From Candidatus Moraniibacteriota bacterium (lineage in GTDB: Bacteria; Patescibacteriota; Minisyncoccia; Moranbacterales; UBA1568): 54,017 bases of DNA. The first letter of the stretch is position 1. Every line of letters begins with the position of its first letter. The notes under the pieces were generated by a model. It did not search any database. It was not told the DNA's origin and worked only from the letters and a program-made list of their open reading frames with translations. Position numbers and translations under genes: made by a program. The DNA lies in contig CAINXS010000067.1 in assembly GCA_903854995.1 (NCBI GenBank), forward strand, positions 1 to 54,017, read 5' to 3'. Of the stretch, positions 26,476-27,022 are shown in pieces.

Positions 26476-26623
26476 TCCAAGTCACAAGTCTGAAAGTCGA
26501 AAGTCAAAGAAAGGAGTCATTTTGTTAACGGGTTCACGAGTTACGAAGAAACAGAAGAATAAGTCGAAAGCATGTCTTGTAATCGCATCCCGCGATTATA
26601 CGGGGCGGGGGAGAGGATGATTC

Positions 26624-26668
26624 GCCCTGCATGCGCAGGGCTTCGTCCCGTGCCGTACGGCACGGGAC
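26624..26668. repeat. Double-hairpin element A
   Basis: GCCCTGC-ATGC-GCAGGGC and GTCCCGTGCC-GTAC-GGCACGGGAC. Confidence 0.85.
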
Positions 26669-26670
26669 TC

Positions 26671-26738
26671 CGGGCCGTCGTATAGTGGTAGTACGCGTCC
26701 ATGGGGGTGAAACATGAATGATTTCATGTTCACGGGCG
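26671..26738 (+). other. tRNA-like 5' half (acceptor strand, D-arm, anticodon arm) with 27-nt hairpin in the anticodon loop
   Basis: CGGGCCG TC GTATAGTGGTAGTAC G CGTCC ATGGGG [gtgaaacatgaatgatttcatgttcac] GGGCG; D-arm identical to the tRNA at 26856. Confidence 0.55.
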
Positions 26739-26798
26739 TTTCCACTCCGAGGTTTCCGAGGCAAGAAATGAAACGTTCTGGAGCATGTGGTCCGGGTT

Positions 26799-26836
26799 CG
26801 TCCGGCATTCGCCGGACGCCCCGCGTATGCGGGGCG
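26799..26836. repeat. Double-hairpin element B
   Basis: CGTCCGGC-ATTC-GCCGGACG and CGCCCCGC-GTAT-GCGGGGCG; flanks gggttcg|attcc resemble a T-loop. Confidence 0.85.
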
Positions 26837-26855
26837 ATTCCAAGCAGACAGTGAA

Positions 26856-26926
26856 CGGGCTGTAGTATAGTGGTAGTACGCATGCATGGGGTGCATGTAG
26901 TTCGGGTTCGATTCCCGACAGCCCGA
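26856..26926 (+). tRNA. tRNA-Pro (anticodon GGG)
   Basis: CGGGCTG TA GTATAGTGGTAGTAC G CATGC ATGGGGT GCATG ... TCGGG TTCGATT CCCGA CAGCCCG A; folds as cloverleaf; no encoded CCA. Confidence 0.9.
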
Positions 26927-27022
26927 CAGAAGAAACGGGCCCGGCGGTAGCCGGGGCCGTTTTCGTATTCCGCTTCCGTCCGCGCCCGCTTCGCGGTATA
27001 CTGATACTGAAAATACATCTTC

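Follow-up and report, generated by a model that had tools for sequence, protein, structure and literature searches.

In this Candidatus Moraniibacteriota DNA, the element upstream of an intact tRNA-Pro(GGG) gene probably belongs to a family of GIY-YIG homing elements by which tRNA genes are split; it is decaying and has no ORF. Within this scattered family of mobile elements it is the smallest, and it lies in the window, the whole 54,017-nucleotide stretch that was analysed, in whose numbering coordinates are given.

A dead tRNA-Pro(GGG) copy and its intact neighbor

The intact tRNA-Pro(GGG) gene occupies 26856-26926/7 (ARAGORN; Rfam, 62.9 bits) and begins 14 nt past the end of a dead, 3′-truncated copy of the same gene (26671-26841), which is interrupted in the anticodon loop and in the T-loop. 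The tRNA-like 5′ half that the first-pass annotation had seen before the intact gene is borne out by alignment, as 26671-26800 shares 88% identity over 130 nt with an insert-bearing tRNA-Pro(GGG) gene of a congener (G003:C5:600-760). The locus is built from the following parts:

26624-26668, + strand: upstream hairpin pair, GCCCTGC-ATGC-GCAGGGC and GTCCCGTGCC-GTAC-GGCACGGGAC, which abuts the dead tRNA (sequence, inverted-repeat match)
26671-26706, + strand: 5′ part of the dead tRNA-Pro(GGG), with acceptor 5′ strand, D-arm, and anticodon 5′ strand, up to base 37 (alignment to G003)
26707-26781, + strand: structured insert of 75 nt at anticodon-loop position 37/38, with hairpin P1 (26707-26733) and helix P2 (26734-26742/26770-26778) (comparison with homologues)
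26782-26800, + strand: middle part of the dead tRNA, from base 38 to T-loop base 57, with the anticodon 3′ strand GCATG at 26783-26787 (alignment)
26801-26836, + strand: double hairpin (DH), consisting of TCCGGC-ATTC-GCCGGA (26801-26816), CG, CCCCGC-GTAT-GCGGGG (26819-26834), and CG, which splits GTTCG from ATTCC (pattern search, covariation)
26837-26841, + strand: ATTCC, the last tRNA-derived bases, with the 3′ side of the T-loop and the start of the T-stem 3′ strand (sequence, comparison)
26842-26855, + strand: 14-nt spacer, which holds the GIY-YIG gene in complete elements (sequence, comparison)
26856-26927, + strand: intact (regenerated) tRNA-Pro(GGG) (ARAGORN, Rfam)

The DH spans 36 nt between T-loop bases 57 and 58 and sits exactly between TTCG and ATTCC, where it had been placed at first reading. 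The tRNA homology of the dead copy stops after ATTCC (26841), and the element itself contains no ORF. The dead copy remains below the Rfam tRNA threshold and gives no tRNA signal in a local scan even at E = 10, and a relaxed Rfam scan of the region returned the intact tRNA, chance matches, and no other known RNA family. The covariance search of 26671-26850, on which the first-pass annotation had staked its tRNA reading, thus goes against it; despite this silence of Rfam, the upstream sequence is, as judged by homology, a copy of tRNA-Pro(GGG). The RNA fold of 26600-26860 has a z of -4.25.

The second double hairpin that had been reported just upstream (26624-26668) is real in the sequence. Similar pairs are found directly 5′ of tRNA-Pro(GGG) in the relatives G001, G004, and G005, of which G001 and G005 lack a T-loop element, so that the upstream pair is a feature of the locus and is not required by the element. 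Directly 3′ of the intact tRNA, a GC-rich hairpin followed by TTTTC (26935-26965) is probably its terminator.

Within the anticodon-loop insert, P1 is a near-perfect hairpin of 27 nt (11 bp and one bulge), as originally described, and P2 is a 9-bp helix. The anticodon stem CGTCC/GGGCG that had been proposed around P1 needs revision: the real partner of the 5′ strand is GCATG (26783-26787), and GGGCG belongs to P2 as its left strand, so that the insert comprises 75 nt rather than 27. The proposed stem is replaced by the homologous pairing CGTGC/GCACG together with helix P2.

Homologues of the insert with covarying P1 and P2 occur in nine genomes of the same family (f1) and in one of f5. In G003 (L107:601-747, C5), the insert is located at 37/38 inside a perfect cloverleaf tRNA-Pro(GGG), and no other Pro-GGG is present among the 43 tRNAs of the regions fetched, while Pro-CGG and Pro-TGG are. 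Judged from the sequence, the G003 insert is a candidate intron: splicing may remove it, or the cell may be able to do without this gene. A genome with Pro-TGG can probably spare Pro-GGG. All the other loci that were read have the insert in a dead copy next to an intact Pro-GGG, and since further genera show this arrangement, an intron is no longer the main reading. The choice initially offered between a mini-element targeting tRNA loops and a decaying or intron-bearing duplicate resolves into both together, except that intron function is unsupported in this genome because the dead copy is truncated and replaced. The inserts of G003 and the window are alike at 70 of 75 positions (by eye) and more alike than the surrounding tRNA, which suggests transfer or strong constraint. 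A group I intron, which is characterized by a conserved catalytic core and a length above 200 nt, was rejected for this 75-nt insert, and no Rfam group I match was obtained at gathering or at E ≤ 10.

Related arrangements are seen elsewhere. In G016 (L180/L172, C2:21188-21450) and G027 (L181/L173), a dead tRNA-Pro(GGG) that is split at the anticodon loop encloses a whole second tRNA-Pro(GGG), and the 3′ half of the dead tRNA bears its own T-loop hairpin. A dead tRNA-Gly(CCC) in G000 (L013:380-600, C27:17280-17500) combines a 27-nt anticodon-loop hairpin with a T-loop DH; the anticodon-loop hairpin takes on the architecture of P1 (4 bp, 1-nt bulge, 7 bp, 4-nt loop) with an unrelated sequence.

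The T-loop double hairpin and the nuclease gene of complete elements

The link between paired tetraloop hairpins and tRNAs that was suspected from the single locus holds genome-wide and across genera. The pattern GCATDCGC-N10-GCGHATGC was searched in the 1.11-Mb genome with the reversed pattern as a control. At up to one mismatch there are eight matches (reversed control, 0), and at two mismatches the pattern is as frequent as its reversed control. Each of the eight close matches interrupts the T-loop of a tRNA copy that is truncated and has an intact tRNA next to it (Pro-GGG, Pro-TGG, Pro-CGG, Gly-CCC, Leu-CAG, Ser-GGA, Val, and Tyr), and double hairpins are accordingly not equally common away from tRNAs. 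A longer DH variant with a third hairpin precedes Ser-TGA (L015).

The helices of the hairpins covary strongly. Across 26 distinct DHs, 96.2% of the cells are paired compared to 85.6% after shuffling, with a covariation of 0.308 compared to 0.120, and none of 500 shuffles reaches these values; nine pairs show double-sided changes, and slid registers are only 38-45% paired. The loops ATNC and GNAT are conserved in nearly all DHs and are kept in L151, a member of a distant family with quite different stems. The dinucleotide CG is repeated around the hairpins and becomes CA where the T-loop has CA, and two DHs with TTCA in place of TTCG on their left have TG instead of CG between the hairpins, which preserves the helix.

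In GTDB, a T-loop-flanked DH was found in 29 contigs, nearly all beside an intact tRNA of the same orientation. The contigs belong mostly to Moranbacteria, with others from Falkowbacteria, the Parcubacteria group, other Patescibacteria, and MAGs labelled Smithella/Syntrophaceae. The same design is found across taxa at tRNAs for Pro, Ser, Tyr, Gln, Lys, Val, Leu, Thr, Arg, and Gly. The insertion point is identical in all 44 modules, which take on two mirror forms: in one, a 5′ remnant and the DH precede an intact tRNA, and in the other, GGTTCG-DH-AATCC and a 3′ remnant come after it. The 5′ remnants are up to 100% identical to their intact neighbor (Pro-TGG, 55/55; Ser-GGA, 69/69; Ser-CGA, 71/71; Gln, 55/55), the 3′ remnants match it at 17/17 to 19/19 positions, and the state of the dead copies overall varies from sequence identity to strong decay. 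At the Pro-GGG locus, which is syntenic in six genomes of one genus, the T-loop element is of the 5′ type in two (G000, G004), of the 3′ type in two (G002, G003), and missing in two (G001, G005), so that occupied and empty alleles are both present among relatives. Such polymorphism is expected from independent, repeated insertions at a single point.

Tandem arrays also occur. Four tandem 95-bp units, each consisting of a tRNA-Lys 3′ end, a spacer, and GGTTCA-DH, follow an intact tRNA-Lys in G056 (C19:128088-128398; L072, L110), and three tandem 62-bp units follow a tRNA-Ser in a Falkowbacteria contig (L117). In MAGs of Smithella/Syntrophaceae (Desulfobacterota), T-loop DHs lie beside tRNA-Ser and tRNA-Arg (L113, L115, L132, L137). 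With the HMM used, no GIY-YIG gene of the DH-linked clade was detected near the Smithella DHs, which are read as either transfer or independent carriage.

Complete elements additionally harbor a nuclease gene. Their order is a tRNA 5′ part up to T-loop base 57, the DH, AATCC, 12-20 nt, a GIY-YIG gene of 83-87 codons, about 10 nt, and a whole tRNA of the same kind. The ORF is flanked by the split T-loop on one side and, 9-27 bp away, by the intact tRNA on the other. At the Tyr locus of G000, an 87-codon GIY-YIG ORF fills the interval, starting about 20 nt past the DH and ending in the first bases of the tRNA, and the arrangement recurs at Tyr, Ser, and Gln elements in several genera and families. 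All five members of set A1 match PF01541 (Pfam GIY-YIG), and the invariant residues comprise YVYIL...YxG, DLKRR, EH, and RE. The closest PDB structures are the UPF0213 proteins 1zg2 and 1ywl (E 6e-13). When 131 genomes of the order were searched for the family, 103 had matches; each of the ten best (E < 1e-35) adjoins a tRNA, most of the weaker ones do not, and the DH-linked nucleases form one clade in the tree.

Most DH elements, including that of the window, are without the nuclease gene. In the Tyr mini-element of G002, the ORF is missing and an in-frame gene tail, VRLTKSLDDE, precedes the tRNA (compare ...RLTKSLV in L034), so that at least this mini-element is a deletion derivative of a complete element. 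The window element is presumably a deletion derivative as well.

Some tRNA-adjacent GIY-YIG genes (Ala, Glu, Leu, Asn) have no DH. Small GIY-YIG ORFs also stop 11-52 bp short of a tRNA where no T-loop DH is present, as in L049 (Ala), L044/L050 (Trp), L216 (Glu), L218 (Leu-CAA), L223 (Ala-CGC), and L225 (Ser-CGA). At the Ala and Trp loci, the break of the 5′ remnant lies at the anticodon loop, and at Trp a single hairpin joins the anticodon loop to the T-loop. A second insertion family consists of small GIY-YIG ORFs away from tRNAs (L219, L226, L227, L228, L229) that are flanked by (T)CACCCYGTTAAATAATTTTAAATTTTT upstream and GGGTRAA downstream (TTCACCC/GGGTGAA inverted repeat).

Proposed homing mechanism and competing explanations

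The proposed mechanism is modelled on T6 SegB, a GIY-YIG homing endonuclease that cuts inside tRNA genes, has the cleavage-associated motif RAWTSGAAC, and is needed for the tandem amplification of tRNA-Tyr in T6 (PMC13096335). The split T-loop motif GTTCG/AATC agrees with the reverse complement of this motif, GTTCSAWTY, and the DH is placed between GTTCG and A. The enzyme would cut both DNA strands of a tRNA gene at its T-loop GTTCG/AATC, and repair of the break would copy the element from an occupied locus, with homology provided by the conserved T-arm that is common to tRNA genes. The element or the repair would supply a tRNA 5′ (or 3′) part, whereby one functional tRNA remains and the old part is left as the remnant. 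The DH would keep the remnant site split and hence uncuttable, which would permanently block the old site, and it may also restrain expression of the adjacent nuclease gene. The anticodon-loop insert could act as a second, different plug with a similar splitting role. Subsequent loss of the nuclease gene would give rise to mini-elements such as that of the window. GIY-YIG homing enzymes leave 2-nt 3′ extensions (PMC2988022), and by analogy such ends are consistent with the CG/CA repeated around the hairpins. Because the intact tRNA retains the T-loop motif, something must keep the enzyme from cutting its own locus: specificity for the flanks, low expression, or rapid repair.

Tyrosine-integrase tRNA islands leave a split tRNA, a displaced fragment, and a regenerated tRNA as their classic mark (PMC4383910), and T-loop attachment sites are known, as for Ms6 (PMC1762012). 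The elements could be remnants of such integration, in which a tyrosine recombinase inserts a circle at a T-loop attB, restores the tRNA, and the integrated DNA later shrinks to its ends. Fragment and regenerated tRNA are both seen here, the two polarities share one virtual junction (GGTTCG-DH-AATCC), and the identical 95-bp and 62-bp tandem units look like repeated integration. This origin is nevertheless unlikely, as the elements measure about 50-350 bp, carry a hairpin cap and both 5′ and 3′ remnant polarities, and contain no recombinase or integrase gene, the sole recurrent gene being the GIY-YIG gene. The flanked DH pattern has no match in IMG/VR viral contigs either, and a viral origin was rejected on this result, with two weak GIY-YIG relatives (42-45% identity) in the phage collection. 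Another, quite unlikely reading takes the DH for a palindromic parasite in its own right, whether REPIN/RAYT, IS200/IS605-derived, or akin to mitochondrial double-hairpin elements, which enters T-loops and persists only where a tRNA copy is redundant. The inverted order of the hairpins in the alignment, with the reverse-complement-related loops ATNC/GNAT, and the Y1 transposases of G000 would fit a parasite, but no Y1 transposase was found in the DH-carrying G002 and G005, the DH is restricted to tRNA remnants within the genome, and the flanking GIY-YIG genes form one clade. REPIN/RAYT in particular was discarded because the Y1_Tnp distribution does not track the DH and the repeats are not scattered intergenically.

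Covarying helices and the G003 cloverleaf, the only Pro-GGG among the 43 tRNAs fetched, could also be explained if the remnant were a structured RNA (an intron-bearing precursor, decoy, or leader) for the processing or regulation of the downstream tRNA. Such a function is very improbable, since the 5′ and 3′ remnant forms have only the DH in common and thus no common RNA, the loci read outside G003 show the insert in a dead copy with an intact neighbor, and Pro-GGG is probably dispensable given Pro-TGG. Truncated tRNA copies beside intact ones are common debris, and the dead copies here vary from identical to heavily decayed; ordinary tandem duplication and decay, with hairpins arising from replication slippage, is still hardly credible against a fixed insertion point in 44/44 modules, conserved loops with covarying stems, and the many isoacceptors and taxa involved. 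The preferred reading remains a GIY-YIG homing element. A further-reaching and rather doubtful proposal is that these are mobile elements of a class of their own, in which a tiny GIY-YIG nuclease is united with a spare tRNA half and with a T-loop DH serving as cruciform substrate or immunity mark, so that the whole can enter almost any tRNA gene without killing it, and that the companion insert of about 75 nt in the anticodon loop is perhaps an undescribed type of bacterial tRNA intron where no intact Pro-GGG was found (G003).

Relation to known systems and significance

Fungal mitochondria, including those of Allomyces, reportedly harbor double-hairpin elements and a GIY-YIG gene that is inserted in an essential gene and carries a substitute end of the host gene. 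The elements described here share the double hairpins and the nuclease gene with a replacement part; they differ in being bacterial, always T-loop specific, and in uniting the hairpins with a GIY-YIG clade in one element. SegB of phages T4/T6, a free-standing enzyme, is likewise a GIY-YIG protein encoded beside tRNA genes, and its reported motif is the T-loop sequence split by the DH; SegB drives the tandem duplication of tRNAs (PMC13096335) and homes in the tRNA region (PMC2988022). In contrast to SegB, the present elements reside in Patescibacteria cells and not in a phage, encode a single-domain protein of about 85 aa, and bring their own tRNA part and a DH at the presumed cut point. CPR bacteria contain LAGLIDADG homing endonucleases in rRNA insertion sequences (PMC11270868). 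These, too, are homing elements that occupy structural RNA genes within the same radiation, but they have another nuclease fold, target rRNA, and in many cases are group I-like introns remaining in place, unlike the duplication of the tRNA seen here. UPF0213 proteins (1zg2, 1ywl) are also single-domain GIY-YIG proteins, for which no link to tRNAs or hairpins is known.

tRNA genes are classic landing sites. Literature searches with partial coverage returned no description of tRNA-split GIY-YIG elements in Patescibacteria, and by the searched literature, no bacterial case has been described in which tRNA loops are split by a minimal homing element that is capped by paired hairpins and brings the tRNA part for the repair. 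The elements account for truncated tRNA copies in these Patescibacteria genomes and point to a likely role for one clade of the small GIY-YIG proteins that are common in them. The enzymes of about 85 aa are predicted to cut the tRNA T-loop motif as SegB does, which would make them testable minimal GIY-YIG endonucleases, and the multiplication of tRNAs by such enzymes may be a general evolutionary process.
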